In this document: positions 187-33,755 of the stretch, piece after piece
Numbering within the stretch: position 1 is the stretch's first letter
How the letters are laid out: each line of letters opens with the position of its first letter
Source: Sipunculus nudus
Lineage: Eukaryota > Annelida > Sipuncula > Golfingiida > Sipunculidae
Direction: 5' to 3'
Assembly: GCA_026874595.1 (NCBI GenBank)
Contig: CM049315.1
Coordinates: 73,544,401-73,608,400, forward strand
Length of the DNA: 64,000 nucleotides
Made by a program: the position numbers and the translations under genes
The notes under the pieces: generated by a model
Database searches by the model: none
Told to the model about the DNA's origin: nothing
What the model saw: the letters and a program-made list of their open reading frames with translations, nothing else

Positions 187-243
187 CTAGCACTTTAAAG
201 GTAAAAAGATAAATATAGATGTGAGTGTAACAACTTTACGCAT
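187..243 (-). pseudogene. Signal-peptide exon, broken copy A of the small secreted NTF2-like family
   Basis: Read on the minus strand from the ATG at 243, the exon gives a short hydrophobic leader, MRKVVTLTSIFIFLPLKC, and then TAG at 189-187. Two other copies (9.2 and 11.2 kb) have the same leader with CAG at this codon (MPIRCQS and PKRSQS), so the TAG is probably a Gln-to-stop change. The untranslated bases before the ATG also match those copies (a 'caatcctgtat'-type block on the plus strand near 273). The rest of this copy would lie left of the window. Family assignment rests on its resemblance to the leaders of better preserved copies. Confidence 0.4.
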
Positions 244-498
244 TATTAACAGTCCGATCTCATTAGGATCCAATCCTGTATAAATTTCTAGAAAGTGTTA
301 ACTGATACCCGAGAAAGACTTAAAATAATTTACTTCAGCTTTTTACTTCGGGGTGCAGCCTTTGATAGATTCCTATAAGCATTATTATCATCATAAGAGG
401 AAAAACATAAAGTTTATCTGACATAATTCGTATTTTCACACGAGTAATATATTAAGGACTTATCGTATTAGTCCATGGGCTGGAGTGACAAACGTTAA

Positions 499-516
499 CC
501 CCCCCCCCCCCCCCCC
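499..516. repeat. Poly-C run
   Basis: Eighteen consecutive C residues. Similar C or G runs lie near 36708-36722, 37637-37662, 56607-56625 and 58457-58487. They are error-prone positions in an assembly and have no visible function. Confidence 0.9.
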
Positions 517-639
517 GCCAATTTATATTTTGATGTTATTGCTATATCCCTAAACTTTGATTTAAAGGATGTTAACATTGATTAAACTGGGTCTCAGTAG
601 TGGTTCCAGGCTGTTTATTTTCAACATAAAAACTGATGA

Positions 640-1710
640 TTCTGTCACCCATTTGAGGGGAAACTAAAATGATCATAACTTAATCACGTTTTACCAAGAA
701 TAACACAGTACCCATCAAACTGTTGCATTTACCAAGCCCGTACAGATGATATATAAAATATGCAAATAAGATCAGTATTGAGGTCAGCAGGGGTCAAAGG
801 TCGCGAAATAGCCCCCTTTGTCGAAATCTAGAAAGTGACGACTCATTATTCCTCTGTATGGACGAAATAGGTCAGATGTTCAATTTATGGCCTGATTCGG
901 GTTTTTACCACACACTGGAAAAGTTCTGGGTTACGCATGTTCAATGATTTCTGAAAATAAAAGCACCTGAACAAACGAAATTGGTGTAATATTAAATATT
1001 TTGTGAGAAACCCTATGTTGGAGGTAGGGGGAAATAAAATGACCATAACAACTTTAATGTTTCATTTAGAGCAATAAAGTATCAATCAAATAGTTTTGGT
1101 TTGGTCATACCGGTTTAGATGATATAAAGCTGATATATAACATGTGCAAATTTAGTCTGTATAGAGGTCAGCAGGTGTCAAAAGATCATGACATTTTAGC
1201 TTCGGCGAAAGCATAGAAACTAGCGACTCCTAATCATTCTGTATGGTGGATATAGGTGAAATGATTAAATTATGTCCTCGGATAAGTTTGTGACATACAT
1301 TGAGACTGTTCTGGTTCACGTCTGCCTTAGGATAAAAGAAAGTAATCAATCGATTTTGGTGTGTTGCAGTGGTAAGTTTATTTTAGAACCATCATGTTAG
1401 TTGTATGGCAAATTTAAAATAATCCTAAGTGTATGACATAGAAAAATACTTTTTTATCATGCCAGTTTATCAACCTGATATATATGTCAGTTTTGGCATC
1501 AGCAGGTCTCAAACGGCCACGGAATGATCGCCTTGACCATATCTAGAAAGTAATGATCATCAATATATTAGAGAATAAACTTATCGGGCAGCTACTGCTC
1601 TCCCCTCCTGGACTAAACGAAATTATGTCTTTTCTGTAGCCTTTAGAGTGTTTTAGCAAATTTTAAATATTGAGACAAAAAGTGATCATACTTTGTGAAA
1701 TGCGAATTAG
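640..1710 (+). repeat. Decayed tandem repeat, three units of about 330-390 bp
   Basis: A block beginning with a GGGAAAnTAAAATGANCATAAC-like stretch and continuing to 'gaggtcagcaggggtcaaagg' and a 'ctagaaagtgacgactcat' motif recurs at about 658, 1029 and 1440. The best markers are the 'gtcagcaggngtcaaa' motif near 785, 1170 and 1498. The units are diverged, with many substitutions and indels. No open reading frame runs through them. Inverted copies of the same unit occur near 3.5-4.0 kb. Confidence 0.6.
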
Positions 1711-2539
1711 ACACGAAGTCTAAGGTCCATACATGCCAGGTAATTGCTTATGATAAGGTTGTTATAGCAATCTAAGTGTCGACAGTATAAGGAGGCCTAT
1801 AAATGTTGTTTACATTTCTTTTAAAAAATTAAGTCACAAAATTATAAATATGGCTGCCATTATGATGCTTACCTTGCGGTAAAAGCACATCCTTTCATTA
1901 TATTTAAGTCATCACATATAAACTATTGATATAGATGCTACTATATATAATGGACCAGTGTCTTTTTCAGTGCAAATAAAGTCCTTCTGGAGCATTTACC
2001 GTATAACAGTTGCTGAGAAGGTGCAGGAATAAGAATTGTATCTGAATCATTGATGAACTACTCTATTAATATACTTGTATGACCGAATTGCTTTTTAACA
2101 CATTGCTTTTTAACACATTTTGGATTTTAACAGAAAAGGAAACTGGCCACATTATGTAAAATTCAAAATAATAACCCAGGTGGCGGCAAAGAATTACCTT
2201 AAAGAATTAAATTAAGTCCTGGATTATTATAACTATGCCATCATCGTGTTTCATTTTTTTTTATAATATCCTTTATATAAGTCCCGGTGTCGGTCAGCCT
2301 ATTCAGGAAGAATACGTATTGCATCAAACATAAAGCGACACCTGATACATATTAACAAAAAGCTGCACAGTGTATCAACTTCTGATTAAAAGATCGGTTG
2401 AAAACATGTGAATAATACGTAATGTTTGGCTTTATATCTCGACCTTGTTTTTAGACTTTGTTTCCCACATCAGCATCCCGTTATGTTTGCATTTTATGGG
2501 GAAGCTTATATGTAACATTCCATGTGTCATGTAATTACA
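1711..2539. other. No gene seen
   Basis: AT-rich sequence without an open frame longer than about 60 codons. A short block near 2290-2400 resembles part of the dispersed repeat at 2540-2950. Confidence 0.6.
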
Positions 2540-2950
2540 TTTTGTATGTTTTTGGGAATGGAACAGGTGGGTAAGGAAACATCGCAAATAATTATTGTTG
2601 CTGGTTGAACGAAATTATAACTTAGGATACCGGCTGCATTAATTGCCTTCATATTGCTTATTCTGGTCAATAATACGGATCATGATATGGCCCTGATGAA
2701 CTCCCCCCTAGATTAATATAACTCTGTTATAAATATAACTCTTCATCGCACACTTCAATCTGTGCTTCATTCCTTTTGAATATCCAAGGCTGTTTCGAAA
2801 GGGGTGACTAACCATAGCCTACTGATTATATAAGACTTGATATCGGTCAGACTTTTTAGATAGAATACGCATTGCATTACCCCATAACCGATAAAATATT
2901 AACGTAACGCTTCATTCTTTGCAAGATCTTTGGATAATAATTTTGATAAT
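2540..2950. repeat. Dispersed repeat R2, copy 1
   Basis: This block shares long stretches with 9430-9790 and 11450-11830. Shared marks are 'gaacaggtg' followed by 'aaacatc', then 'ggctgcattaattgcctt', 'attaatataactctgt' and a final 'gtcagactatttagatagaatacgcattgca'. At 9.4 and 11.5 kb it lies directly upstream (minus-strand sense) of a signal-peptide exon. It is therefore best read as the 5' flank or promoter side of the duplicated gene unit rather than as a mobile element. Confidence 0.55.
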
Positions 2951-3539
2951 AATTTGCCGGAAATTAACAAATGGCTGTTAACATGACCACCACAATTGCA
3001 AAAAAGGTGACTATTCATTTAATCATGTATCATTGCATTTCAGTGATTGGTTAAGATGATGCTTTACTCAAGGGCACATAGTTTCTTTTTTTTTGTTCTT
3101 AAAAGTGTACTTTATTACATTTTATAGTATTCATAGATTAGAAAAGTAAAATGGCGAACATAAATCATTCAGATAGCTGCAATATGACTAACACAATAGA
3201 GAAAAGCGAATTCTTTTATTCTATTTAGCATTAACTATGACCATTGGGTATTTGGAGGTAATAGTGCTCATTTCCTGATCGTATTTGTTAAACGATGATT
3301 TGTAATCTATCAAGGGCTATATAAATGGTTTTAATTGTGATTCCTGTTACCCCTTGTTCTGTCTGTATTGTGTTAACATATGGCATATCCTTACTTATAT
3401 GTTTTACTCTTTTAAGGATTAAAATGTGAACTGTACAATATCAATACAATATGGCAATTGACTAAAAATAATGAAAATAATAATTGACGTGCCTTTACCG
3501 CCATTGAAGCGCCAAATTTAATAAAAAAATAAAACATCA

Positions 3540-3990
3540 TCTAAACAGGCTTGTTAAATGCAATAATTAGATGGGCACTTTATTGTTCTTGATGAAAAAC
3601 TGATGTAGTTATGGTCACTTCAATATCCACAATCCCTTATTTAATATTGCATCAACGTTATTTGTTCAGGTACTTTTACTTTGTGTAATCCGTAAACATA
3701 TGTGAGCCTATTCTTTTGGTGTGTGGTAAAAACCTATATCAGGCCATACATTGGTCATTTGATCCATTTCCTCTAGCTATAGGAATAATGAGTCGTCACT
3801 TTCTATTTTTGGCCAAGGCGGTAATTTCATAACCTTTTCAACGGAGCTGACCTCAATACTGACCTTATTTGCTGAGCTTATTATCTGAACGGGGCACGAT
3901 AAGTGACATGGCTTGATGGGTATTTTGTTATTCTTGGTTTAAAATTGATGGAGTTGTTGTCATTTTAATAACCCCTACAACTTCTTCCAA
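3540..3990 (-). repeat. Inverted copies of the 640-1710 repeat unit
   Basis: The reverse complement of 3720-3870 reads 'ggtcagtattgaggtcagc', then 'agaaagtgacgactcattattcct' in two pieces, then 'ggcctgatataggtttttacc'. This matches the plus-strand unit near 775-910. A second partial unit lies at 3870-3980. The array therefore exists in both orientations about 2.5 kb apart. Confidence 0.55.
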
Positions 3991-5249
3991 AAAGTACAGA
4001 AAAAAAAAACTTTAGTACAAAAAAACCCGAAACCACGAATGAGTCATATTATATTCAATGATAACATTGTTTAAAATCAAAGTATAGCCATATAGCAATA
4101 AGAAAAAATAGGTATGGCTAATTAGTGGGGGGAGGGGGCAAGGAGGATCCCTCCGCCCAGTGGACGACTGTATGTGGGTAGAGATTAAATTAACATTGAA
4201 GCAGGTGCTTTGGGAAAAAACAGCATGAATAATTTACGTTCTCGGTTTGATGAATTGCATACTAAGATGTGTAATTACATTTTTGTATGTGTTTGGGAAT
4301 GTGACTTCTTTAAATTCTCCTTGTAAACTAGTATTCAATTTGTCACGAATGCTAGTCATTTGTTAACTATTAATGTGAATATTATGTCAAAGTTTGAATA
4401 TGCAGCACCTTTTTTATTTGATTGTAATCAGAATATAAAACATCACGGAATACTCGAAATGTCGTAAGCAACCTTCAGTACTCCAGATAAACATTTCTTC
4501 GTAAAGATAACAAGAGCTCTGAAAATACACAGAGGAATAAGCATTTAGATTTTACGCAGTTTACAAATTACTTTTGTCGAAATGCATTGAAAACAGGTAT
4601 AGACCTTACCTGCCTGTCTCCTTAATGTTTCCATTTGCTGCTTTTTTCTTGTAATGAGCAACCTGAATGGTTACCTTGGAACAAGAAACGACGACAGAGG
4701 TTCAATCGGCCAGGTTTCTACCCAAGACTGCCTTATTCCGATAAAATAGGCTGTTATCAAATCATATCAATGTAAAATAACCCAGTAACATTCGCATTAG
4801 TTTGAGTGATGAAGACTAATGTATGGCTAAGTCAACACCGTTGGTACATCTAAATCACAGAGACAGCATGTTTAGGTCACAATCACCATCAGCGCATATT
4901 CTGATGTTCTACTTTCTTGTAATGATTTTTTTACTATTCGTAGTTTTGTTGGTAGTAAAAATCAAAATCTCTAATCATGGATAAACTTTGTGGCATATGT
5001 TGTAAGTCATTATTTTGCTTCGTCAAACGTATCATGTTCCACAATATCATATTATGAATATTTATATAATTTATTCATATAAACCTGTTATTACCTATTC
5101 CCCTGATCATAGGTGACATTGGAGCCAGCAGAAATGCGTGAGCCTTGTAAGTGTGTTTAGCAATCAGGCAGTATCACTTTTCTTTAATCTCTCTTCCAAG
5201 TCCTCGACTTGTTGTTTTATCTCAGTACTTGAACTGCGTCATAAAAAAA

Positions 5250-6468: not shown

Positions 6469-6485
6469 AAAAATAAAATATAAAC
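6469..6485. repeat. LINE target-site duplication, left
   Basis: The 17-bp AAAAATAAAATATAAAC is repeated exactly at 8976-8992. It abuts the poly-T (poly-A tail) side of the minus-strand LINE. It shows ordinary target-primed reverse transcription into an A-rich site. Confidence 0.85.
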
Positions 6486-8975
6486 TTTTTTTTTTTTACA
6501 ATATTTATTCAAAAAAGATGATACACACGTACATATACATACATGGCATAAAAAAATAAGCGATATACATAAATTAGTACAGGTACAGACAAAAGTGCAT
6601 ATTTTAGTCTTTCATATTCTTCTGAATGTAATTTTTGTTAAGAATAAAGGAAAATATTTGTTAAGAACAGTTCATCAACACCCTCCGCTTGTTCACCAAT
6701 ACCTTTCTAAGTGACAAATAGAGTACACATGAAAGTGAGCTCTTTACATGAGACATATGCACTTAGAAAAAAAAATAATAATAAAAAAAATAAAATTAAA
6801 TAAACACTAGAACAAGACACATCGTGGTTAGAATTACGTTGAGATTATGTCCATAATTTGTGACCATTTTTCCATATGTACATTCAGTTTTCCCTTCCTG
6901 AATGTTAAACACCTCTTTTAGCTTGAACTTTATAATTTCTAACAAATATGGGTTATCAGTTTCCCTTTTAAGGAATACTACGTATTTGAAAATGAGAAAA
7001 ATTGTATTATTAAGCCTACTGTTACTACTATCCGGCAACTGACCATACATAATATTTGATTTCGTAAACTCCGGTAAAATATAGCCTGTACTTTCAATCT
7101 ACTTTTTCAACCTGATATAAAGTTTTTTTGTTGTATGACAATAGTAGAACAGATGACTTACTGACTAATTGTAAATAAAACAATAATTACATCTTGGGCT
7201 GTCTATCAATTTCCATCTAAAAAGATTCTTATTTACAGGAAGATAATTGTTAATAATCTTAAATTGAAATTCACGTAGATAAGTATCAAGAGTACATTGA
7301 TAGACATTTTCATAAACATTGTGCCAATTGCTATATCCAATATCACCAAGTATAGTACTATTTGTCGGTACCTGATAAATTGTATTGATAAGTGCCTTGT
7401 ACACCGAACGACTGTTCAGATTTGACAAATCTAAAATATTATCAGGCACCATATCTGAAACAAGTCCATCTTTTATTTTTCTTTTCCATTCCTTCGGTAT
7501 TGCACCAATAAGGCTGTTCCATTGAAGACACAATAAATCCTTTCGAGTAACTGAATAATCCTTAACAATTTGTTCCACTGTTTTAAAGTTACTATCACAA
7601 TCTAACATGTCATTAATATATTGAACATTCATTTTAAATAGAGTATGATTAAACACAGAATACCCATCAATCAATATGTTTCGATTATTCCAAATAAATT
7701 GACATCTAACATCCTTCTCTATTAATGTACATTTCCAATATAAAATCCATTCCTTAAAGCAAGATACATAAAATGGTGCACAATCCTTTGAAAGACAGTT
7801 GATCAAAGTCTTTATGAATGCATTGTAATCCACCTACATTACTACACATTGCATTCAAGAGAATTTTAACATTTCCATTAAACTTGTTTAATAAATTAAC
7901 TACCCAAATTACTCGTTGGGTCTTGTATCTCATCTCTATGTTTGGTAATTTTAATCCTCCATCTTCATACATACCCACTGCTGTAATAAATTTCACCTTA
8001 GCTCGTTTGTTTTTCCAAGTGAATCTGTTAATTATTTCTTGAACCTCTTGCATAAATCCCTCTGGGGGATCGAGCATATTCATAATATACAGTATTTTAG
8101 AAACTGCTAATGATCTTACTACCTCTTATCTGCCATATATATTGTTAATTGTCTTCCTTTCCCCAGATTCAGAACATTCTTCAAATTTGACAAAGCCCTA
8201 TAAAAATTAAGCTCATATGATAATTTATCATTATATGTAAAGTGCACCACTAATATTTTCATAGAACTATCAACTAAATTTATCCAGTTTAAATTAAATG
8301 GATCATTTGCTTTGTTTTTCCATTTGCCAATCCATGACACTTCCGGTTTCCCCACATTCATCTTCAGTGATGAAAATGTAGCATATATATCAAAAATGGT
8401 CATGACTCTTCGCAGTGAATTTAAATCCTTTAAAAACAGAGTAATATCATCCGCATACATACACATTTTTATTTCTATATTCTTTATCTTTATTCCTTTT
8501 ACCTCCATATTACATCGGATTAAGGCTCCTAAAATTTCTACAGACATGATAAATAAGTAGGGGGCCAGGGGGTCTCCCTGCCGTGTTCCTCTGGTCAGTG
8601 TAAAATAAGTTGTACTGAATCCATTGTTAACCACAGTACTCTGGACATTGTTATGTAACAGTTTAACCCACTTAATGAAAGAATGACCAAAGCCATACTT
8701 TTCTAAAACCGCAAACATGAATTCAAGGCTTAAATTATCAAATGCAGACTCAAGATCTGCCCCAAACATAATACCTTCCATATTCTGGGTATCTGAATAA
8801 TATAACACATCAGAAATCAAGCGTAAAGGCTCACCAATGAATCTATTTTTCACAAATGCACTCTGATCAGTATGGATAATGTGCGGTAACAAACCAATTA
8901 TTCTCTGAACTAGAATTTTACTAATTATTTTGACATCAACATTGAGAAGACTAATTGGCCGCCATGATTTTATCA
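6486..8975 (-). mobile_element. 5'-truncated LINE (L1/Tx1-like non-LTR retrotransposon)
   Basis: The minus strand encodes a reverse transcriptase from about 8974 to 8119. It starts at SWRPISLLNVD and shows GADLESAFD (catalytic Asp), GTRQGDPLAPYLF and MYADDITLFL (the YADD box). After a frameshift and a stop near 8120-8140 the thumb region continues (FTWKNKRAKVKF, GGLKLPNIEM; 8083-7754). After a second shift near 7790-7840 comes the C-terminal domain, ending FRWKLIDSPRCNYC. A further piece of C-terminal coding lies at 7050-6796. The element ends in a T-run at 6486-6497, the poly-A tail in minus sense. A perfect 17-bp duplication, AAAAATAAAATATAAAC, flanks it at 6469-6485 and 8976-8992. It is 5' truncated and inactive. 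Confidence 0.88.
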
Positions 8976-8992
8976 AAAAATAAAATATAAAC
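8976..8992. repeat. LINE target-site duplication, right
   Basis: Exact copy of 6469-6485, abutting the truncated 5' end of the LINE, where the reading frame breaks just before the SWRPIS motif. Confidence 0.85.
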
Positions 8993-9429
8993 ACTGATAG
9001 GCGACCCTTGGATTGGCTGTTGGCGCAATCCCATCTATCAATGTGCCAGAACGACCAATGTTGCGTGCCATCTTATGCATTTTCTTGGTCTCAATATATT
9101 TCGATAAAATTGCTTCAGATCGTTATCGCATGCTGTCCCCTTCTTCCCAATGGACTGGCATCTTATGGGCATCAAGATAGCCAAAAGTATGAGAGGAACC
9201 ACTTTACTCATCATGCACAGTCCGGTCTCATCAATACCAAATCCTGTATCAGGTGTTAAAAATGATAACTTATATCAGAGACAACATATTTTTTAAACAA
9301 TTCTCCTTTGCTTTTAAGTAACAGATGTAGCCGTCCGATAGCTCCCTTTAATCACCATCGCGATAGGAAAACCATGACGTTGGACCACAACTCATTAGAT
9401 AGCAAGTTCTTGTTTTCATATGAGGAGAT

Positions 9430-11184: not shown

Positions 11185-11245
11185 AAGACTGAGATCTTTT
11201 TGGCACCAAGACAACCACAAATACGACCCAAACAAGTTTACTCAT
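11185..11245 (-). other. Signal-peptide exon, copy C of the secreted family
   Basis: The ATG at 11245 opens MSKLVWVVFVVVLVPKRSQS, a typical short leader, close to the leader of copy B (MSKVVPLILLAILMPIRCQS). The 5' untranslated bases also match copy B (both read GATACAGGATTTGGTATTG upstream of the ATG in minus sense). A GTAAAG donor follows TCTTTC near 11185. The flanking R2 block at 11450-11830 matches that of copy B, so the whole promoter and leader unit was duplicated. Confidence 0.45.
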
Positions 11246-11449
11246 TATGAACAGGCCGATGTCAACAATACCAAATCCTGTATCATTTGCCGGAAATTAA
11301 AATAATTCTAAACATCTTTCAAGTAGCAGGTCAATAGCTCCCTATAATCATCGTGAGATGGAAAGCATGACGTTTGACCACAACCCGTTTGACATAATTC
11401 TTATTTTAAACTCCTGAAATTGAAATATAAATCATCATATATCATCATA

Positions 11450-13103: not shown

Positions 13104-13900
13104 TCATATGTCGTAACCAGCTTTCAATGTTCCAGTTGACGAATCAGTGACAAATATAACCCCAAATTTCTGAAATATAACCCATAATAATTCCTTTTTT
13201 TCTATCTGACATATTTGTAAACAATATTTGTGGAAATTCTGCAAGAGTGGCCAAAGATCTTACTTGCCAGTCTCCTAAGTGAATCCGTTGATTATCTTTT
13301 CCTCATAATCAAGTACTTAGATGGTAACTTACCCATACAGATCGACGTGGTCATTATGCAAAAATGTCAGACTTTCTTATTTTTGTTAATAAGCTATTAT
13401 TCGATTTGTATTTAGACATTATTAGGAAAGCAACCTCAATGTGTTTTAGACTGGTGTAAATGCCAAGAGGTTATATTTTTAAATAAAAGGATATTCGTCA
13501 TGTATTTGGTTTGTGTTATCTGAATACTCTAATAAATCTTCGAATATTTTTTTTGTTCGTTACAACATATGCCTCACATACTGTACATACATTGATCTTT
13601 AACAAATAGTTCATTTATAATTATAATTCAGAAATCACACCTTGATATTATTTAGTTAATTGACGATAGATCAACGTCCTCTTACCTTATGCCTTGGTAA
13701 AAGCTGAAATTGGAGGCATTAAAAATGCCACAGGTAAATAATCATTTTCAGCAACCATGGCAATATCATGATTTATAATATAAGATAATTTAATACTTTT
13801 GTAAAGCGCGACAAGAAAGGAAGCGTCCTTAGGAACTCCACATACTTTATTTTCGATGACTGTTAGCATAACTGTCATTTCAGGGGAAACTTTCATCTTT
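13104..13900 (-). pseudogene. Small secreted NTF2-like gene, broken copy D (exons 2-4)
   Basis: Exon 2 ends at 13686 with LPVAFLMPPISAFTKA, then TAA and G, before a GTAAG donor. The distance from the TC(A/T) of the SP-equivalent position to the donor is 22 nt, as in four other copies, but the penultimate codon is a stop here. Exon 3 (ending 13264, donor GTAAG) aligns with copy B exon 3 (VTI, then ING and ETGK) and has in-frame stops. Exon 4 (13169-13104) reads FGVIFVTDSSTGTLKAGYDI and TGA, matching copy B's exon 4. No leader exon was found where copies B and C predict one. It is clearly non-functional. Confidence 0.42.
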
Positions 13901-18144: not shown

Positions 18145-19421
18145 TTACTGCGAACTCCACAGGTCATATTCAACTTTCCACTGTCCATCTTTCGGGTCTA
18201 TACTCCACACTGTTATATCTCTGAAAAAAAGGAACATCCTTTACTTTCTGCATTAGACGAAATATTGCTCTAACGGTAAGCCCCAGAGCCTGTCAGTACA
18301 GGGGAGTGAGTACAAGGATGTGAGACTGTCTCAGCTTAAGCCAAAGTCACAGCCGTGGGCTGCTTGTTTCACCGTGTATGGGCAAATATAAAGTAAAGAT
18401 TACTTCATACCTTGTGTTCAGTGAATCCTGTATTTATTCAATACTGCGACAAAAAATAAGCTTGTTTATATTTATTCAAATGTTAATAAAGTACATTTGA
18501 AGAAACCTCTTTATTTAAAACGTTTCGTTTATAACGCTAATTTACCGCGAAATCCGCGGTCATATTCTAATTTCCACTGTCCATCTTTCGAGTCTATAAT
18601 CAACACAGTTATATCTCTGAAAAAGAGGGACATTGTTAAACCCTTCACCAGATTGTTAAACCCATTACCTTCCTCTCCCACTGAGGGTTCCTCTTGCTCG
18701 GTAATGGTTGATCTTCACGGCTTTATCATTGTAGAAGTATATGTAACCATCGCTCAGCTGAATCGTATGCATGCCTCTATTTCTAATCTGATTGAGAAAT
18801 CGTGATCGGCTAGCTGTAGAAAATATTATACGTGTGTATCAGATAATATACATAATGTATATGATGTTCATATTTTACGGCTTTCACTTTTAATTGTGGA
18901 GTGAAAAGAATGTGAACACAAAAATAACAGATACTTAGAGATAAAAAAAAACCTCTTACACTTGTCCCCGATCATTGGTGAACCAGCTGGCATTGAAAAG
19001 GCTTCAGGATTGTAGTATTGCTCCACGATCCACTTCGTATTATTTTCAGCATATTTCTTAGACCAAAGGTGCTCCTTTTCTTGAATCTTTAGCCGGATCA
19101 CTGCTATTATATGAGCAATAAATTGTAAGTGGTGTTGAAATAACGACAGAAAGGAGAATTATATTTTAATTTCATATAAAATTGGGTTTTCAACATTACA
19201 CTCATGTACTTGCGAACAAGTACATGTACATGTACACTAAATACTTGAGAACAAGTACATTAAATTAAATAAGAGAAAAACGTCTATTAATTCATGAATG
19301 TAGTATTGGTCTCATTGGTATAACTCTAACCGCTGGTCTGCCGAATAAGTCCTTCGGTATTCTCGCCATATAGAAGTGCCACAATTTGCATCAGTAGTGG
19401 AAGGAAAGCTCTAATTGCCAT
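18145..19421 (-). CDS. Small secreted NTF2-like (SnoaL/DUF4440-type) protein, complete copy
   Basis: Minus-strand join of 19421-19331, 19100-18960, 18813-18669 and 18220-18145. All junctions are GT-AG and in phase (1, 1, 2), giving 150 residues and a stop. Exon 1 is a leader, MAIRAFLPLLMQIVALLYG. Exon 2 gives the family's N-terminal helix and the strand-turn YYNPEAFSMPAGSPMIGD. Exon 3 gives RFLNQIRNRGMHTIQLSDG and later HYRARGTLSGRGR. The last exon ends DPKDGQWKVEYDLWSSQ. This order (helix, then A.xxPxxxPxxG, helix, GxY strand, DGxWKxxxDxWxS) is that of SnoaL/DUF4440 NTF2-like domains, usually about 130-150 residues. An upstream in-frame ATG exists at 19577, but the leader favours 19421. A second candidate last exon at 18616-18529 would give 154 residues. 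Ligand or reaction is unknown. Confidence 0.5.
18529..18616 (-). other. Duplicated alternative last exon of the NTF2-like gene
   Basis: A 398-bp tandem duplication (about 18008-18250 and 18408-18630) copied the last exon. Both copies follow a pyrimidine-rich TTTTTCAG acceptor and begin AGATATAAC. Both keep frame when joined to exon 3 (split AG/A Arg codon). This proximal copy reads DITVLIIDSKDGQWKLEYDR, then GFRGKLAL and TAA. The distal copy reads DITVWSIDPKDGQWKVEYDL, then WSSQ and TAA. Only the distal one keeps the family's terminal Trp-Ser. They could be mutually exclusive exons, or the proximal one could be dead. Confidence 0.45.
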
Positions 19422-21518
19422 GCTTGTAGATTTTTCACAAAATTTGGAAACAATTTTTGTGGTCAAACTATATCTAGTAGTCTTCCGTATACACAGGCTG
19501 CAGTGGCGCACTAACATACAATGGCAACTGACACTCTCAATATTTTTTTTCAACATAACATAACCTGTTAACGCCAAAGTTTATTACCCAGGTTACATTT
19601 GTTCAACCGTGAAGGTGAATTTAATTATCAATTTGTGACAGGGTTTATTATAGCAGCCCAATATTGCAACATATGTACATGTGATCACCGAAAACTGATT
19701 AATACTTTGGTGACGATGACGAAGCCTTGGCCGCTTGGTGCTAAATATATTGAATGTGTTGGAGGGAAACTAATTTCATATGTATTAATCAAGGGTTGTT
19801 CATATCAGTTTTTATCTGAAGAGGAGGCTTTGAAAAGAATAAATATCGTAACCCGCATTTAAGGCTTAGGAACTTGTGAGCTTTTTCATAGTTTTCCCCC
19901 ATATGACTAAATAATCCAATGAAAGGGGAATATTGCTGAATTTTCAACACTTAATGCCTCAGCCTGCTTAATTTCTCAAACCAATGAAATAACTAATCGG
20001 ATTGACCTTTGAGTATTAGGGTTATTTAACATAGGTTATTAGAAATTCAACTCAAGACTTTCCAAAGAAATATTTATACACCCGATTTTTAACGAATATT
20101 ATTCTAGTTGATTTAGGCATTGACATAAAGACATGCATTTCATAGTTCATAAATCCAGGAACTAGCTTCCCAATAATTTGCATCATGAAGCAGCCCACGG
20201 GTACTTGGCCACTCTCTCTCAATATGTGGGATCTTTAAATCGGGCATATATATTTTTCTTGTAATCCTGTATCGCACAATATTAATGAAAATTTAAGATG
20301 AAGATATATGCAAATGATTTTGACATAACATATGATATTGACTAGAGTCGGGTCCAGAGTAAAGTTCAGGAAGATAAAGTTCAGGATTGTTGAGGTATAA
20401 CATTGAGGTATTTGTCGTATGCCAAAGACTAAATACTAAATTTCAAATAATATATATTTTAATTGGCTTATTCCAGACGCCTTATAGGGTGTTTTTTATA
20501 CCGTACAAATTAATATAGAAGCTGTAACGTTTATAGTATAAAAAGTTAAAATTATTTTTACAATAAGGCTAAGCCTGCTAGAAAGAACTAGATTATTACC
20601 TTACCTTGAATTAACCAATTATATTATTAAGTTGGCCAGGTTCTTTCGAGTTCGCTATTTTTATTATGTGTTGACAATAGAGGTTCGTATATTATGAAGA
20701 ATTTCTCTTCCAGGCAGGGATTACAGGATGTAAGTTGCTGAGTATGGTTTTGCTGTGCTTATAATCTTCTACCTATGGAAGGCCCATTTCATATATTGAT
20801 CAATGATGAAAAATTTCATGGTATATTTATAGGTTAAAATCTCCCTAACATTATGAATTTAATGTATGCAATTTTAGTGATACAGTGGGAAGACTTCAAC
20901 AGCAAATCAATAAGTAACTGGAATTTTGTTTACTCTGTATGGTATGAGGGTATATTAGCAAAAGACAAAAGTCATGGTTTTTGACACGGGAGACCATTAG
21001 GAAACACTGAAAAATGGTATTATCAACAGAATCTGGAGAGGATGTGTCAGTACAGTATAAATGATTGCTATAACAAAATTGAAGATGAATTTCATGTTGT
21101 ATTTGAATGACATCGATATAGAGACTTTTGTGACAAATATACTGAAAAAATTTCTGCAAATACTAAATGAACATGACTTTGTATATTCATTTACCAAAGA
21201 AAAAATGTTTTAAATAAACAGATTAGTCGCCTATACATTTTGTGCATTTCTTAACGCAGCGTAACATTTTATATAGTAAACTATTATGCAACATTTAATT
21301 TCTTGTTATCTGTGTATATGTACATGTGGCATGTTACGCTCATGTGGATATGAAAGCACACAAAGCTATGGAAGATTCTGTGCCTCTGAGCGTCCTGGAG
21401 ATTTTTATTCAGGCAATGTCTATGAATACAAAATATTATGTAAAACTATGAGAGTAATACATTTTTAAGACAACATTGATAAAAAATTATGAAAACGTGT
21501 TTAGCAATGAATACCTAC
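19422..21518. other. Spacer and probable introns between family copies
   Basis: A minus-strand frame at about 21130-20900 after a TTTTTTCAG site (YICHKSLYIDVIQIQHEIHL, then LQFCYSNHLYCTDTSSPDSV) lies where exon 2 of copy G is expected and has a weak Y.N..(8)SP pattern. It is too diverged to call. A plus-strand frame at 19599-19862 has no recognisable motif. Nothing else is visible. Confidence 0.3.
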
Positions 21519-21594
21519 TCTTTTCATTGGTATTGTCACACCTTATTGGTATTGGCATAGCCAGAAGAATCAGAAAAATCGCCTTGATCAACAT
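21519..21594 (-). other. Signal-peptide exon, copy G of the secreted family
   Basis: The ATG at 21594 opens MLIKAIFLILLAMPIPIRC, then DNTNEK and one extra base before an AGA/GTAGGT donor. The leader resembles copy B (VVPLILLAILMPIRC). The exon ends in phase 1, like the leader exon of the complete copy at 19.3 kb. No certain second exon follows. Confidence 0.42.
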
Positions 21595-23230: not shown

Positions 23231-23249
23231 GGTATCCGAATTCTTATTG

Positions 23250-23977: not shown

Positions 23978-23979
<2 letters not shown>

Positions 23980-24008
<29 letters not shown>

Positions 24009-24320: not shown

Positions 24321-24322
24321 AT

Positions 24323-24510: not shown

Positions 24511-25222
24511 TAATAGGGATGATAACACACCCAGGACGCGCAGGTTCTGTAAGCACCGAGCCTTATTAATACCCTGATATAAAAAAAACTGGTAGTTACT
24601 GGTATCGCCGTGTCACGTTGCCCAAATGCGAAAACAGTACTCTGTGGGTGTACGTGACTAGGTCTAGATTAATATTGAGGAGAACAGCATTGAAAATGGT
24701 GGTAGATATCTCCAGAAAAATATATTAAAACAATTAATAAATAAATAACAATAACATATACATAACTACCGCGGCAGTAGCAGTACGCTATATCTGTAAC
24801 GTTTCAGCTATGAATATGTCACAATATATAATTTTACTTTGACAAATTGAGTGCATGCAATTCTGTATGGCAACATATTGTTTCTCTATTAAATTCTCCT
24901 TGTTAGTATAATTACATTCGTTGAAACTGTATGATTATGTGCAGAGACAAAGTGGTAGCCATGACAATCAAATCAATCAAATCAAATCAAATCAAATTCA
25001 TAATTTTAATTCCTGTGATTGTTGTCATACCAATATGGTGCGGAATGATATACCAACGAAAAGGACCCGGAAATGGTATTAATTTTCGCTTGGAATTAAA
25101 TCTAGTTTCTTCCTGTACTTAATATGGTACAAAATGGATTGCGCATTACCAAAATAAAATAACGTCTCGTCGTTAAAGTAAGGCAAGTGTGACAAGGAGA
25201 GGTTTGTTACAATAAAATCAGG

Positions 25223-25632
25223 CAATGTAGAATTAGAATAGCTATGAAATAAACATAATAAATCTTGATCATAAACAGTAAAATACGACTCACGTTATAA
25301 ATGCCAAGCACATAACTAATTTCATAAATAGACGCAATTCGATGGCCTAATAAATAATCCTGCTATTTAATAGTAATTTTCTTGTCAAGGGATGCATGCA
25401 GTTATCAATGACTTGAAAAGGTAAATTCAATGTAGAATTAGAATAGCTATGAAATAAACATAATAAATCTTGATCATAAACAGTAAAATACGACTCACGT
25501 TATAAATGCCAAGCACATAACTAATTCCATAAATAGACGCAATTCGATGGCCTAATAAATAATCCTGCTATTTAATAGTAATTTTCTTGTCAAGGGATGC
25601 ATGCAGTTATCAATGACTTGAAAAGGTAAATT
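25223..25632. repeat. 205-bp perfect-register tandem duplication
   Basis: 25223-25427 and 25428-25632 are head-to-tail copies of the same 205-bp sequence, beginning CAATGTAGAATTAGAATAGC and ending GGTAAATT. I see one difference between them (CTAATTTCAT against CTAATTCCAT). There is no open frame. The near identity implies a recent duplication. Confidence 0.95.
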
Positions 25633-25699
25633 CAAGAAAAGGAGAAGATTTTTTTTCTGAAGAATACGCTGCAAAAAAATATCGAGTGGATCGTAAAGA

Positions 25700-27140
25700 A
25701 CTGTAACCAGAGGCACACCTACTTCATGCCTGGTACCTTATCACGAATCACAGATGAAGGTAGGTTGCAGGGTTACTTTATAATAAAAATGTCCATCTTA
25801 CTGATTCTGAATGATTTCATTTGATTAGTAGGTAAATGTGTGTAATAAATTTAATACAGTTTCAACATTTTATGAATTTTATAAAAGTCACCTGATTTCT
25901 TACTGCGCAAAGACGGGTATTTCTAATACTGACTTATTTAACTAATAATCTCTTAACAATACTGTAGAAGTTGAGTCTGGACACGTTATTTGAGCCACTT
26001 TCATTTTCCAAAATTCTCTCTTTTTTCCAAAAATGGTTTTTATGTTTGAAGATCCCTTTTTTTGTCTCACTCTTCCCATAAACCATAGTCACAATTTTAT
26101 AACTGTTGATTATAGTTCAAAACGTTTTAGTAAATAAAGCAGCATTTCCCTAAAAGATGATATTTTTTTTAAGTTCAGACCTTTCCCATAAATTAAAACG
26201 GTGATTTCCATGGTAATTAAAACGTATAAAAATCACAGTTCAATCAGTTTTTCAGAAGCACTTTGAAATCAGATGATATTAAAAGTTTTGTATATTTTGC
26301 ATTTGTAACAAGATATTAATCAAGGTATGGCTATTATCAAATAAGACCAAAGACCACATACTTCAACAAGGCCAACTCCTCTAAATCTAAAGAACTGTCC
26401 AGTGTCAACCATAGAAAGCTGTTATTTGAGAGTTTTTGTTTCACAATTCCGTACACGTTCTAAAGATAAATACAAGTGGTAGCCAATATGATGTTAAATA
26501 ATAATTTGTTTTATTTTCTGGGGAAAAAATGAATTTGTCGTAGGCATACAATTTGTAGTCCCTTTCCCACCAGTTTGTATTCCATTTATACATTTGATCT
26601 GAATATAGAGATTCGAACAACCATGGTATGTCATTAAATGGAAACATATATGGCATTAAATTCCTTGAATTTAAATGCAATGGCTGTATGTAATTTTGCG
26701 GACACCTATGAGAAGTTAACAATATGTTTGGGAAGTACTCATAACGTTTCATTTGAACGTGATTAATATGGTTATATATCCATGCAGAATGAAGACAGAC
26801 GTTTTATAAAAGAAATGATTCGTGGAAAATGGCATCGCAGATATTCAAATCATTGAGGGTTTAATCCATGTTTATCGGAATGTAGCTGTGAAAGCGTACC
26901 AATCCGGAAACAGGATATCTTGCCGTCAGGGAGATCGGCAAGCAAGGGAACACTTTTCGAATGTGATTGGTTTCCAATTGCAAACTTATAAGTTCTTCAG
27001 TGACCAAGCTAATATTTAAAAAAAAAATACGTGTATAGATAACAAGATGAAGACGCCTTAGTGTTGACTAACTGTTTATTTCATTCACGAGCCTTCGAAG
27101 ATTATATTTCCTCCTTAAGGTGTCATGTGGAAAGGTATAG
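25700..27140. other. Unidentified region with one exon-like frame
   Basis: A minus-strand frame at 26810-26441 reads INHVQMKRYEYFPNILLTSH, then QPLHLNSRNLMPYMFPFNDI, and ends LPLVFIFRTCTEL and TAA. It is rich in aromatic residues and unusual for AT-rich noise, but I recognise no domain and find no clear splice acceptor. The rest is spacer. Confidence 0.25.
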
Positions 27141-27149
27141 AAAGCTGTT

Positions 27150-27159
27150 GTATATATAT

Positions 27160-27201
<42 letters not shown>
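27150..27201. repeat. (TA)n microsatellite
   Basis: About 50 bp of TA repeats with one short interruption. Confidence 0.95.
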
Positions 27202-27205
<4 letters not shown>

Positions 27206-28352
27206 GATAAACAATTTGTAATTTTTATAATGCATTGTATAGTGTGATGGATCAGTGGCTGGTTTTTCTGAATATGTACCATGATGACCCGGGTTCCGAG
27301 TGTGTCATTATTATTTTACCTATAATGATAGGTTATGAGTGTCCTGGTTATGTTGAGTTCATGTCCTCTGACAGATTAATGGTTTGAAATTTATAATGCT
27401 CTCCGGCTTAATGCTGATCATGACTGACGACTAATGTGGTGGCGATCTGGTTGTGCAATTTACATGATTATGAATAGAGATAATCCATACATAAATTGTA
27501 TATTAATTGATATATGAAATAGTCAGTATGAGAAAGTTTACGTATTAGTTGCTGACGTTTGTGGATTACTTAATATTATTAATATGTAAGCCTGAAAGGT
27601 GATCTCATAACACGACGGTGTAAGTGTCGACAATGTGCACGAATGCACGAGGAATGAGGTCACGTCATTCGGTGCTATTAATATTATGGTAGGCCTCAAT
27701 GTCTGTAGTGCGCCATAAAACCGGCGATGTAATCATTTTTATTTTGTGTGTCAAATTTGTCAATCAATTTTAGATCCCATATTTGTCGCTGTCGTGTGTC
27801 GGTTAGGTGCATTCTGACGAGTGTTTCTGATGAGAAAAAAGTTCTCCGACCGTAAGTTAGTGTCTTGCTCTTTCATGGACTGTCTGTGGCCATTACTTCT
27901 GAGACTTAGCATGAGGCATGTTTCGCCTATATAAATAACTTCTGGGCATATTTTTCATAATATAGCATATACTACACCTTTACTGGTGCAATCCAAGTGT
28001 CCTTGAATGGTGTGTTTGGCAGCATGAATAATTAGCCTTTTGTTGCGGAGGATGAGCGGGCATGTGCGGGCATGCGTAGATAACAGAAAATTCAAAGCTT
28101 CTTCAAGATACTATAAGTTTATGAAACCTGCCAACAAAAAACATGTATATCCTGCAATTTAAATAATTCAAAGCGTAGAATGTCAATGTGTAGAATTCAT
28201 CATGGGTTACTTGCACCATATATCGTGGGAAACCTTCAGTGTGCCAATTTAAGGGTCAATGTTGAAAATTACCAGGTTTCTGAAAAGAAATCTAGAACCA
28301 TTCATATCAAAGTTAGATCTCATTAAATTACAAATCGTGTAAATAGACATTC

Positions 28353-28750
28353 ATCGACAGCGGCTAAATGACTTACTTATCGGTCTCTATAATGCTACCA
28401 TCGATAGCGGCTAAATAACATACATGCCAGCCTTTATAATGTTAACATTGATAGCGGCTCAATGACTAACTTGTCAGTCTCTACAATGCTACCATCGATA
28501 GCGGTTAAATAACATACATGCCAGCCTTCATAATGTTAACATCGATAGCGGCTAAATGACTTGCTTGTCGGTCTGTACAATGCTACCATCGATAGCGGCT
28601 AAATGTTTTACTTGTCGGTTTCCAAAATTCTACCATCTGGGAGGCTAAGTGACTTACTTGTCAGCCTCCATAAATTTACCATCGGAGCGGCTAAATGACT
28701 TACTTGTGGGTCTCCACAATGCAACCATCGGAGAGGCTAAATGACTTGTG
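28353..28750. repeat. 47-bp minisatellite made from an exon/intron boundary
   Basis: About eight and a half units. The mark 'gcggctaaat' or a close variant starts at 28360, 28407, 28454, 28501, 28548, 28595, 28641, 28687 and 28733, a 46-47 bp period. Units near 28400 and 28500 share a variant ('aacatacatgccagcc'). In minus sense each unit reads GATGGTAGCATTGTGGAGAC (variants), then CGACAA/GTAAGTCATTT. This is the coding end of exon 3 (DGSIVE and the K codon) plus a consensus 5' splice site. Two such units exist at 33.2 kb. Confidence 0.75.
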
Positions 28751-29019
28751 CTACATGGTAGTGTGGTACTGTATTTGTTATGATTGAGAACTTAACCTCT
28801 ACTCACACCAAAGCCTACACTCAGAATGATGAATCTTAATTCTATATTATGCTTGTCTTTTTTTAACAAAAAAGTACAAGAAGATTAAAACAACTGTTAA
28901 TTTATCTTATTTTATTTAGAATAATAGGCCGTTGTCCAGTTTATACAAATTTCTGAAATTTAGTGCTTCCCTTAAAATAACAGACCCATATAGTTTATTT
29001 CTCGGTGTTTCGGTGACCC

Positions 29020-29157
29020 TTAATTTTATTAATTAAAAAAACCTTAAAGCTAAAACCTGGTCGTCTTCAAATCATCTTCACCTTTGCTAAAAACTGTGCC
29101 AGACACTCAAGTAATGTGTGCTATTAATTTGCATCATCTTGTGAGAAAATGTCCTTC
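29020..29157. repeat. 138-bp inverted repeat, left arm
   Basis: The reverse complement of 29652-29789 matches this arm over all 138 bases, with one mismatch that I can see (AATTTGC against ATTTTGC). The 494-bp spacer contains exon 2 of copy E. The right arm is the ancestral location, because a diverged homologue of it sits at about 24200-24320. This arm is therefore the new copy. Confidence 0.93.
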
Positions 29158-29651
29158 CCTTGTTACAAAGAGTGGTATTATGTCCTACTGAAGTGAACAT
29201 GTTACAGTCATTCTAACCTTCTCCCCTGGTCATAGGAGAATGTGGAGGAATTAGATATTCGTCGGGTATATAGTCATATTGAAGATTCCCAGCAAAATTG
29301 TCATCCCTGAATCTCTTTATAAAATCCTTGTTCACTTGTCTGACTTCACTGTATTTCACAGCTAAAAACAAGTAGCTCTATTTATTGCATAAAATATGTT
29401 TAATAAAATGTGCCGATGATTATATATGTTTATTACCAAGTCTTCCATGAATGTTCTGCAAGGAAATGTATGATGTGAGACACCAGTTGTTTTAACTTCG
29501 ATCTTCCTCGTGATTCAACAAGAGTTTCAAAGAAGGATTATATCATAGATCAAAGGTGTTGTTACCTCAAAATTCCCATGCAAAGAGATTATTTACTAGA
29601 AGGTCATGCTCTCGGACGTGTTTTAATGGAGGCACACAGTAATCACTTCGA

Positions 29652-29789
29652 GAAGGACATTTTCTCACAAGATGATGCAAAATAATAGCACACATTACTT
29701 GAGTGTCTGGCACAGTTTTTAGCAAAGGTGAAGATGATTTGAAGACGACCAGGTTTTAGCTTTAAGGTTTTTTTAATTAATAAAATTAA
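29652..29789. repeat. 138-bp inverted repeat, right arm
   Basis: Partner of 29020-29157. Its outer end (TTAATAAAATTAA) abuts a SINE starting at 29790. Confidence 0.93.
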
Positions 29790-29930
29790 CCGGCTTCTTT
29801 CGTTTGGGGTAGAGGAAGAACTGACTTAAAGCGGGGTGGCCAAGTGTTTACATCTCAGCCAATAGGTAATGAGACATGTCACCGTCGGCCCAAAGGCTTA
29901 CCCTGTTGGTTTGTAGGCTTGTCCGTTAGC
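29790..29930 (+). repeat. SINE, copy 2
   Basis: Begins CCGGCTTCT like the 52.6-kb copy and shares 'gtgtttacatctcagcc' and 'ccgtcggcccaaagg' with the 24.3-kb copy. The 3' part is lost. Confidence 0.5.
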
Positions 29931-32540
29931 AGCATTAGTCAAACTGTCATTGAAGGATTTTTAAAAAAATCTTCAGGATAAATTATAAGTTCTTAATATT
30001 ATGCTTCACATGAGGCGAGATCCCTAAATGGACATACTACCAGGAATATATGATCTCAGAGCTGGTTTGAAAATAACCGTTATCAGAAGACCGTGCGATC
30101 ATAGGACTGTGGTATGAAAACAAAATAAAGAAAGCAGAGCATTGCTGCTTGATCAATAACTGCTTGTATTGAACTGTTGTCCTAGATCACTGAAATTAAA
30201 GCCTATTTTATACACTTTTATTTGCCAACAAAACGGTAAACTAAGCACAAATGATTATGAAAAATTTGCTTACATATCTTACCCTCATGAATTTCCCTTT
30301 GATCTTAAAACCTCATATCTTAAATAATCATAACTTTTATTATTATTTCGGGAAGACTGATGCCGCCATCTGTTTTCATTCTTAGTTTATTAGATGTGGT
30401 TTCATCTAACGTCCTGAAAGATTATATGTTTATTGATCATGATTAGTTTTATTAGTTCCCGGAGAATAGTGGGGCTATCTGTATTTTTTTATATTTTTCA
30501 TGCATTTTGTACTTATATTTTTTTAGGTTGCCATATGAAAGCAAAGGCGCCAATTTCTCAGCTCTTGTCTCATTTAGTTTCCTGAAATCTGCAGTTTTGA
30601 TTATGCTCCCTCTCCTCCTCCTCGTAGGGGGGGGGGTTGTTTTCAGTCCCATCATTCATCACTGCCATTGGTGTTTCAGTCTTCGTCAAACCTACCAAAT
30701 TGTAAGATTATTATAACCTCTTCAACTTTTTAAGTACTGCATATGTTTTTTTTTTCAAATTTGAAGACAGTTGTTCCCGCCATGTTCTCAGAAGAGTTGG
30801 GAAAACTGTTGACTTGACCTTCATCTACTTTAAGAATTCCGATGAAGGTAATAACACCTTTATTTCCCTCATTTTATCGAAAAAAAATGTTTCAACCAAG
30901 TTCTCAGAAGCGTTTCAAAGCCGATGACTTTGATCTAAATCTTCTCTTGTAAAACATGTATAAACCACTCTTGAGGGTATTCCGTCTGCACATGTAGGAC
31001 CCTTCACAAGGAAGGTTCCTGTCGACAGAGGTGCCAGAAGGTCAAACGTCCAGAACACAGCTAAAATTACCTTCCGTATTACTCTCCGATGATGAAATTC
31101 TTGTTGTGAATGCCATGGATTATTTGATCAGATGATCTAAAGCAAAGTGTCGACATTTTGGGTTGAATCAGAGGATACAGAACTTCCATAAAGACTGCAA
31201 ATATATTTCTTTGCTGAAGGAATAAAAGACCTTTTGTGACTTGAACGGCCTTTTTTCGAAACTGTGCAAGCCAGAATAATTCCGACAGTTTTAAAGACAG
31301 ATCTATTGCATGAAGGATTTTATTGACATTTAATTCGAGGAATAAAGTCATGTCATTCCTTTGGTACTTTATGGTGCCGATAACCTTCCTGTAATACGCG
31401 GTTAGCAAACAAAAACTAAACAATATTTTACAATATTCAACATTTAATCGATTCTTATTCTAATCATATTTATTGGTCGTTTATTGGCATTTCCGGACAA
31501 TTATAGCAAATGTCGTTCAAAATATTTGAAGGATATTGTAGAACAATTCCATGGTATAGCATGAATACGCGCCACTGTTGCCATTTATTTAATATTTAGG
31601 ACCAAATATATTGTGTAATAATTCCACAAGTGGAACTGGCCAAAAGTAGTCTGAGTTCACAGGTCTTATGAGAAAGGTAAGTTTTAACCAAACTGAATGC
31701 ATTCGGCTCACTCGAGGGTGATGTAAACAGACAGCAGGGTTTATTTATTAGACAGATGTTTTTTTAACTAAGCCTTTTGACAGCAATTACTTTGTTGCAG
31801 GCTTATATTTCACAGACTTAGTGTCAGCCAGTAAATATATTAAATGAATAAACACCTGATGACGCCTACAAACAGAATATCACATATGTGAGCATCGTTA
31901 AGGTTTAGTTTTATTAATGCTGCCTTTTCCAAATAATTAAGAGCCCACATGTCCATTTTTCATTATCCTGCTGAAAACGAGGGCTTTAAATGCGGAAAAT
32001 ATTTCAGATGATTTCATGGCGGACAATATATTTATAAGACCACATCGTTTCATTTTGTGAAGATGTCAAACTCTTGACGAAATGGAAGTTCTGCATGTGC
32101 ATCGCACATTGTTATTAATCACAACAAAACTAACATATGAGATTGTCGCTGGTCTAAATGGTAATCTATAATTCCACATATATTTTTATTCAATGGGTAC
32201 ATCGAATTTGTGAAGAAAGTAATATTTCTTCTAAAGTGTATTTCATCGATATAAAAAACGGTATAGGACACGATTAAGGAAGTAAATACGTGTGTGCTTT
32301 AATTATGTTTATTCCTATGGTTCCAGTTCATCCTATAAGCAAATACATCATGTCATCTGAGTTTTTTCTTCCAAATATGGAGGGGTTAAGTTCAAAACAA
32401 GTCATAGGACAAGAACATGACTATTTTTATGAAAATTAAGGAAAGATGACACGGCATGGATTGCTGAAAACGTCTTTATTGTAGGATCTTTTTGATGGCC
32501 CAATATTCACCAATGATTTAATACGTGTAATAGATTAAAA
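29931..32540. other. No gene recognised
   Basis: A 114-codon minus-strand frame at 31423-31079 (NVNKILHAIDLSLKLSELFW, then RNIFAVFMEVLYPLIQ) follows a TATTACAG acceptor-like site and is followed by GTAATT after its stop. No domain is recognised and no family match was found. The G-rich and AT-rich remainder shows nothing. Confidence 0.35.
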
Positions 32541-32899
32541 AGTAATAAAATGCTGTTTTATATATATATATATTTTTTTTTCAGTTGATCCTCTTGCTTT
32601 AAATCATTAATGATTTTTATGAGAGCGCACATAGTACATACAAAAATATTTGCATTTTTTAATATATATGAAAAAAAAGCACAAAACACACAATACCTAA
32701 AACTCTGTTATGCCAAAAAGTTAATGCTTCTTCATGATTGTGTAATTGTTCATAAAACCTTGTTCCCACACCAAAAACATCATTATTCTGCATATCAAAT
32801 CACCAAAAGCGCACAATTTAAATTGTACGAGTATCAGATTAGAGATAACGAAAAATTCATAGTTTTTGTCAAGTTAATATACGTTCATGAAAGCTCCTG

Positions 32900-33755
32900 T
32901 CCCAAAATAAAAGCATGTATACCCTGTATTTTAAATTACTCAAAACGCGCATTTGAGTTTTTTTTAAAGTCATTGAGTAAATGCATATCAGCCAATACTA
33001 CTGCCTTAACGTTCCTTGCGAGTACACCATCATGGATAATTTGCACCATATGTCGTGGGGAATCTTCAGTGTGCCAGGAGAAGCGTCAATGGTTAAAATT
33101 ACCAAGTTGTTGAAAAGAAATATCCAGAATCAATAATATCAAAGTTTGACATTATGAAATTACGAATTGTGTCAATGGACATTCATCGATTGCGATTAAA
33201 TAACTTACTTGCCAGCCCCAATAATATTACCATCGATTGCGGCAAATTACTTACTTATCGGCCTCCACAATGCTACCATCGGCGGCTTTTTCCTCAAAAA
33301 GGAGAACCTAGATTGCCACATCGCTGTGTAGATCGACAAAACTGTTTTGAAACGGCCAAGTTTCCACGCCAGCTTGTTTCGTCTGTATCAAGTAAGCCAG
33401 TATTCCATCTTCCAACAATGCATGACAAAAGAATAGGTTATGTGCAATATTGAAGTAAGGTACTATATCTTTTTTTTAATTTATTTAAATTTCTGAAATT
33501 AAGAGGTTCCCGTAAATGAAAATTTTTCCTCAGTGTTATGTTTCGGTTATATTAAACCCAAGACCCGACCCTTGTTACAAATAGAATGTTCATTATATCC
33601 TACTACCGTGATAATATTACAACCATACTCACCTTTTCCCTTGGTCAAAGGAGAATGTGGAGGAATAAAATATGCATCGGGCATATAATAATGAAGAATC
33701 CCAGCAAAATCGCTATCCCTGAATCTCTTTGAGAAATATTTTTCTTTATGCGCTG
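32900..33755 (-). pseudogene. Small secreted NTF2-like gene, copy F (duplicate of copy E)
   Basis: 32900-33740 is a diverged duplicate of 28130-29340. Exon 2, ending at 33633, reads SKRFRDSDFAGILHYYMPDA, then YFIPPHSPLTKGK and a GTGAGT donor, aligning with copy E (YLIPPHSPMTRGE). Its 5' part is replaced by the 67-bp minisatellite. Exon 3, ending at 33255, reads LFEEKAADGSIVEAD and then AA/GTAAG. This aligns with copy B's KAANGNIKETGR end and keeps phase 2. An in-frame TAG precedes it. It is probably not functional. Confidence 0.42.

Follow-up and report, generated by a model that had tools for sequence, protein, structure and literature searches.

To our knowledge, hardly any function has been assigned to the DUF4440-type NTF2 proteins of animals, and literature searches agree with this. 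Two reports place DUF4440 proteins in nematode proteomes, namely those of Anisakis larvae and of Parascaris extracellular vesicles (PMC7407331, PMC11468347), and a review of the NTF2-like superfamily states that extracellular members tend toward non-enzymatic binding of small molecules (PMC3924330). A further point of comparison is the PDB entry 3hx8, named 'putative ketosteroid isomerase', with its bacterial homologues, a name behind which we know of no assay. Here we describe a gene family of Sipunculus nudus related to these proteins, as seen from a stretch of 64,000 nucleotides (C10:73544401-73608400, called the window throughout) in an assembly of 1.43 Gb and 153 contigs. An earlier note, made from the sequence of the window alone, had read there a tandem family of short, four-exon, secreted NTF2-like genes on the minus strand, mostly dead. 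In our analysis the window probably shows a decaying outlier of a gene family that is spread over several clusters and encodes leader-bearing, DUF4440-like NTF2 proteins of ~150 residues.

The family resembles DUF4440 (PF14534) in a full-length match, which covers profile positions 1-107 of 107 in three of seven members (E 3.3e-4 to 1.9e-3; the window gene is not among the three), in the ending G.WK...D.W, and in two introns shared with a DUF4440 gene on contig C16 of the same assembly. It differs in scoring below the gathering cut-off of that profile, in having a leader peptide, and in forming tandem arrays of several diverged types. The C16 protein is 22-23% identical to the family and its gene is not a member of the subfamily. 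The likeness to 3hx8 and its homologues extends across the whole domain, whereas those proteins are bacterial and encoded in a single reading frame. The nematode proteins, likened here by description only, are also small animal proteins, some of them found in extracellular vesicles. In the literature on DUF4440, NTF2-like and SnoaL proteins in animals we found no description of a comparable family. The present one adds a new subfamily to a known superfamily and represents a sizeable expansion there, with no step foreign to the behaviour of gene families.

Results

One intact-looking gene in the window

Six copies of the gene, A to F, were recognized in the window, and one of them, copy C, is open. 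It is read on the minus strand from 19421 to 18145. Its four exons measure 91, 144, 145 and 76 nt, are bordered by AG and GT and follow phases 1-1-2; joined, they encode 151 open residues, one more than the 150 given in the earlier note. To score the exons we used protein profiles trained only on type I and type II genes from contig C12, with no near copy of copy C included; scores below 3 bits were not listed, and the chance level was taken from 30 simulated windows, in which the highest scores were 11.5, 5.3, 5.4 and 4.3 bits for exons 1 to 4. With these profiles exons 2, 3 and 4b of copy C scored between 13.3 and 42.3 bits (Table 1), against at most 5.4 bits in the simulated windows for these exons, and exon 1 gave no match. 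When the training set included a near copy of C, the four exons scored 32.8, 85.6, 65.7 and 48.7 bits.

Copy C carries two candidate terminal exons, of which exon 4a arose by local duplication of the exon and the 3' end (87% identity over 230 bp). Relative to the three sister copies, exon 4b has 0, 0 and 2 changes and exon 4a has 6, 8 and 12. A role for exon 4a as a second, functioning terminal exon was rejected, because its conserved end is lost and it changes faster than exon 4b in all three comparisons. These three near copies lie at C10:73.934 Mb, where the gene is open, and at C10:72.845 Mb and C12:70.652 Mb, where it is broken: in the former exon 1 contains a shift, and in the latter exon 1 has a stop and exon 3 is split.

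Clusters across the genome

The main array is on C12 and extends over roughly 640 kb, with most matches between 70.55 and 71.20 Mb. Genome searches returned at least 79 matches for copy C (E limit 10) and, with an E limit of 1, at least 106 for type I, 93 for type II, 18 for type III exon 2 and 17 for type III exon 3; these are overlapping sets of exon matches and lower bounds, not gene counts. On C12, genes of type I and of type II frequently succeed one another at a distance of about 7 kb. From the copy C matches we picked 20 stretches of C12, in which 17 of 21 gene places could be modelled as complete and open (11 type I, 6 type II). All 17 have four exons, GT-AG introns and phases 1-1-2, with an exon 4 of 76 or 79 nt, and in one (L043) TTG stands where the others have ATG. 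The four places left unmodelled are L037 (a stop in exon 2, with neither exon 1 nor exon 3 matched), L041 (exon 2 shortened, exon 3 without match), L042 (exon 2 match shortened, with a stop there) and a second gene in L050, of which the stretch includes exons 2 and 3 before it ends. An isolated exon 4 fragment, also in L050, was excluded from the count. Other places in the C12 array carry stops. Adjoining matches to exons 2 and 3, with no intron between them and with a TGA, occur at C12:70966014-70966317 and at comparable places; they are perhaps retrocopies or fused exons.

On C10 the copies C, E and F have partners at 72.845, 72.858 and 72.862 Mb, respectively, and again, in inverted orientation, at 73.934, 73.924 and 73.919 Mb, so that the C-E-F block is present three times on this contig. 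For type III, the reference was an open gene on C12 (L084), of which exons 2 and 3 are seen. For type III exon 2 the top 12 matches, which extend to E 1.2e-13, are all free of stops. For exon 3 the top 12, which extend to E 7.6e-11, include three with one TAG each, namely copy F and its two C10 partners. If the three TAGs are identical, the damage to copy F would predate the copying of the block.

Comparisons between types give a dN/dS of 0.23-0.49 in the computable cases, with dS of 1.2-2.6; within types, pN/pS is 0.53 for type I and 0.82 for type II, the latter on few changes. This pattern fits long-term selection on the domain together with frequent copying. In the tree, types I, II and C each fall on one side of a branch (type I at 85/95 only), and the deeper branches are long and unreliable.

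Relationship to the DUF4440 and NTF2-like proteins

The NTF2-like domain call of the earlier note is borne out by comparison of whole alignments and by shared introns. An alignment of copy C and six C12 relatives matched 3hx8 over the whole domain with E 1.1e-4, the sole PDB relative with E below 0.01. Searches with 3hx8 found 25 bacterial loci, of which 16 were aligned and 8 of these placed in the tree. The hhalign comparison of the family with the 16 bacterial relatives gave a probability of 97.8%, E 7e-13 and a score of 76.3 over 115 columns at 19% identity, against at most 22.8 for 100 column shuffles and 14.7 for the reversed alignment. Taken by type, the scores were 50.8 for copy C alone (probability 95.3), 66.7 for type I and 41.5 for type II.

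The second line of evidence is the DUF4440 gene on C16 (L079). Exon by exon it gives a weak DUF4440-like match (E 0.97), whereas its joined exons 2-4 are open and match DUF4440 at E 4.2e-13 with 50.1 bits, above the cut-off of 25.2; the joined protein also exceeds the cut-offs for NTF2 (22.9 bits, cut-off 21), SnoaL_2 and SnoaL_3. The first exon border of this gene is in phase 1, 19 nt after the codon preceding the xP motif, and the second ends exon 3 in phase 2. Both borders, which were placed by eye, fall in the same alignment columns as those of types C, I and II; the frame of exon 3 continues for some residues beyond the placed donor. In the family the donor of exon 2 had been placed 22 nt after the Ser codon of its motif, a distance that is right if the codon itself is counted and is 19 nt beyond it otherwise.

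Like the exons of L079 before joining, exons of further DUF4440-like genes in L077, at C16:36.60 Mb and at C12:29.2 Mb are single-exon matches below the cut-off. Two small contigs, C131 (L076) and C128 (L078), carry intronless DUF4440-like frames (E 3e-6, above the cut-off, and 0.69, below it); their G+C is higher, 0.47 and 0.51, and they are perhaps bacterial contamination of the assembly. Several further matches were dropped as sub-threshold or due to chance: COQ9 (the best Pfam match of the window protein, E 0.035), DUF6798 (type II, E 0.04 and 0.076), SnoaL_3 (0.085), two NCBIfam families (0.13-0.15), and twelve further PDB rows with E 0.22-1.4, mostly WW-domain proteins or their ligands.

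Broken copies and leader exons

The other five copies in the window are broken (Table 1), which agrees with the description 'mostly dead', although this description suits the main array on C12 less well. The terms 'tandem' and 'four exons' are upheld too. The family had been placed on the minus strand, where copies A, B, C, E and F do lie; copy D, at 25615-25759 and 26787-26953, is on the plus strand, and the family is thus not restricted to one strand. All five places named for exon 2 hold one, those of C and F being recognized by profile and those of E, F, B and A by their match to type III; the exon 2 of A, B and E scored below 3 bits with the C12 type I and II profiles. For exon 3, four of the five named places were recovered (4.7, 13.3, 18.7 and 33.3 kb), while the fifth, at 28.4-28.7 kb, is not an exon but a tandem array of 46/47 bp derived from the end of an exon 3, and no exon 3 proper of copy E was found. 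The places named for exon 4 (4.45, 13.1, 18.2 and 18.6 kb) all exceed the 4.3 bits reached by chance, the first two barely, and the exons at 28.2 and 33.1 kb had been omitted. The length of 76 nt given for exon 4 in two copies is correct for C and A. No exon 1 or exon 4 of copy D was found. The cluster extends to the left of the window with further broken exons.

Each of the five places named for leader exons also holds one, by DNA profile, by repeat comparison or as exon 1 of copy C. Seven type I leaders from C12, combined into a DNA profile, matched 21653-21491 and 9258-9144 (E values in Table 1), whereas the protein profile places the 9.2 kb leader at the level of chance (10.2 bits against up to 11.5 in the simulated windows). 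The 21.5 kb leader, together with its upstream side, is 80% identical over 570 bp to the L050 gene, and a type I leader is also found upstream of the copies at C10:72.845 and 73.934 Mb and, weakly, at C12:70.652 Mb. Copy C is unlikely to use the 21.5 kb leader in place of its own exon 1, since this leader no longer has the usual donor and, as read by eye, the closest other donor is in the wrong phase.

Tandem repeats touch several of the broken copies. The 46/47-bp minisatellite has grown from the end of type III exon 3 and its donor, with 20 units in L084 (2349-3275), 7 in copy E and 2 in copy F, and each unit has donor-like and acceptor-like ends flanking ~33 nt. We set it aside as a source of mini-exons, as the splice-like positions are no better kept among the 20 L084 units than several others. 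A 67-bp minisatellite at 33738-34855 (1118 bp, ~16-17 units) took the place of the front of copy F exon 2, and a 205-bp tandem duplication at 25223-25635, 99.5% identical, ends within copy D exon 2.

Table 1 Exons and remnants of the family in the window. Scores in bits are from the C12-only protein profiles; E values against type III refer to the L084 gene
Feature	Position	Strand	State and evidence
Copy C exon 1 (leader)	19331..19421	-	start ATG at 19421, donor GT, phase 1; kept in sister copies
Copy C exon 2	18960..19103	-	144 nt, AG..GT, phase 1 to 1; 42.3 bits
Copy C exon 3	18669..18813	-	145 nt, AG..GT, ends in phase 2; 13.3 bits
Copy C exon 4a (duplicate terminal exon)	18529..18616	-	conserved DLWS end lost; 14.2 bits
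Copy C exon 4b (terminal, constrained)	18145..18220	-	76 nt including stop; 30.2 bits
Copy A exon 2	5095..5233	-	no frame open throughout, donor kept; E 0.001 against type III
Copy A exon 3	4610..4758	-	halves match in different frames; E 0.014 each against type III; relative in L080
Copy A exon 4	4443..4518	-	76 nt; 5.0 bits, barely above chance
Copy B exon 2 remnant	13686..13770	-	in-frame stop; E 0.001 against type III
Copy B exon 3 remnant	13264..13360	-	stops; E 0.039 against type III, 8.1 bits
Copy B exon 4 remnant	13104..13169	-	66 nt; 5.3 bits, barely above chance
Copy D exon 2	25615..25759	+	18.7 bits; 5' edge overlaps end of 205-bp tandem duplication
Copy D exon 3 remnant	26787..26953	+	halves in different frames, donor not GT; 8.9 bits
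Copy E (type III) exon 2	29218..29361	-	open, AG..GT; E 1e-26 against type III
Copy E minisatellite, 46/47-bp	28352..28748	-	grown from an exon 3 end
Copy E exon 4	28207..28279	-	in-frame stop
Copy F (type III) exon 2	33633..33741	-	5' part replaced by 67-bp minisatellite; E 1e-16 against type III, 11.6 bits
Copy F exon 3	33255..33408	-	in-frame TAG; E 6e-25 against type III, 11.7 bits
Copy F exon 4	33043..33109	-	acceptor AG lost
Orphan type I leader	21514..21594	-	2.1 kb upstream of copy C; protein profile 35.0 bits, DNA E 5e-43
Leader exon, DNA-level relative of type I leader	9153..9268	-	DNA profile E 6e-7
Leader exon, repeat of 9153-9268	11187..11302	-	repeat comparison
Leader exon, repeat of 9153-9268	185..300	-	repeat comparison; broken exons downstream, outside the window (L080)

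Discussion

Possible role of the proteins

Single proteins of types C, I and II show a hydropathy peak of 2.3-2.8 over 11 residues near the N-terminus, and past residue 40 none of the three exceeds 1.55. In the mechanism that we propose, the leader peptide would direct secretion, the domain would fold as an NTF2 cone (the fold being taken from 3hx8, which was found by sequence), and its pocket would hold a small ligand outside the cell, without catalysis. The family itself would grow and die by tandem and segmental duplication, a process of birth and death that would leave fresh copies and wrecks side by side in clusters. More tentatively, the alternating diverged types over ~640 kb and the outlying clusters may represent a large set of secreted NTF2-like proteins that expanded recently and forms a fast-changing extracellular ligand-binding repertoire serving defence, chemical signalling or reproduction. 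The dense array of diverged types and wrecks offers material for asking which ligand and which tissue are concerned and what caused the multiplication. As the exons encode about 25-50 residues each and the scores lie just below the Pfam cut-off, automatic annotation may overlook such genes.

Evidence against this reading and alternative explanations

Several observations weigh against the reading of the window as a decaying outpost of a family of secreted, DUF4440-like binding proteins. The profile search proposed in the earlier note gave, for the joined copy C protein alone, no significant match in Pfam, NCBIfam or PDB, and it is at the level of the family that DUF4440 is matched in full length, in the three members mentioned above; none of the scanned members reached the gathering score of 25.2 bits (best 21.5). 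We infer secretion from the hydropathy peak, and from fold and leader we infer that extracellular small-molecule binding is the likeliest role. In addition, the coding sequence of copy C has 10 differences from its intact sister in 456 positions (2.2%), and the non-coding sequence has 29 in 1116 (2.6%); exon 1 (5/91) and exon 3 (5/145) exceed the non-coding rate, and the coding changes comprise 4 synonymous and 6 nonsynonymous ones. With coding and non-coding divergence so similar, selection on copy C itself is not demonstrated, except perhaps for exons 2 and 4b, which have no change in 220 nt.

The same divergence favours the view that copy C is an unexpressed recent duplicate on its way out and the whole stretch a relic, with the working members elsewhere, as do the two broken copies among its three sisters and the single open copy among the six in the window. 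Against it stand the 151 open residues and complete splice sites that copy C retains, as well as the unchanged exons 2 and 4b, and we regard this view as possible, yet doubtful.

A further alternative is that the proteins are secreted enzymes of the ketosteroid isomerase, SnoaL or epoxide hydrolase type, acting on a small extracellular substrate. The name of 3hx8 points in this direction, and several polar residues are invariant in seven members (Y60, R81, D128, D135, D138, Y145 and D146), with the D.W of the last strand common to the family, its bacterial relatives and the C16 gene. However, the PDB name stems from annotation rather than from an assay, and D.W, as part of the motif common to DUF4440 at large, may have no catalytic function. 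As judged from sequence, we consider an enzymatic role rather unlikely.

We consider it very improbable that a bacterial NTF2-like gene was acquired horizontally and then expanded. Outside this genome, a search that covered prokaryote, phage and plasmid collections turned up bacterial relatives. The C16 DUF4440 gene, however, agrees with the family in the position and phase of both introns, and this indicates that a eukaryote gene already bearing introns was duplicated; the shared introns tie the family to the DUF4440 lineage of its own genome and count against a recent bacterial origin. Finally, chance open frames without common descent can practically be dismissed, since, in line with the earlier note, common descent is clear for copies C, D, E and F (by profile and type III matches), for the 9.2 and 21.5 kb leaders and in the C12 gene models, although A and B taken alone exceed chance only modestly, with several of their exons at or near its level.

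Neighbouring genes in the window

Outside the family, the window contains two tandem copies of an MFS transporter gene, at 52873-55143 and 61371-63973 (MFS_1, E 1e-27 and 4e-10), whose aligned pieces are 79-90% alike, and a reverse transcriptase fragment on the minus strand at 8122-8994 (RVT_1, E 4e-28).

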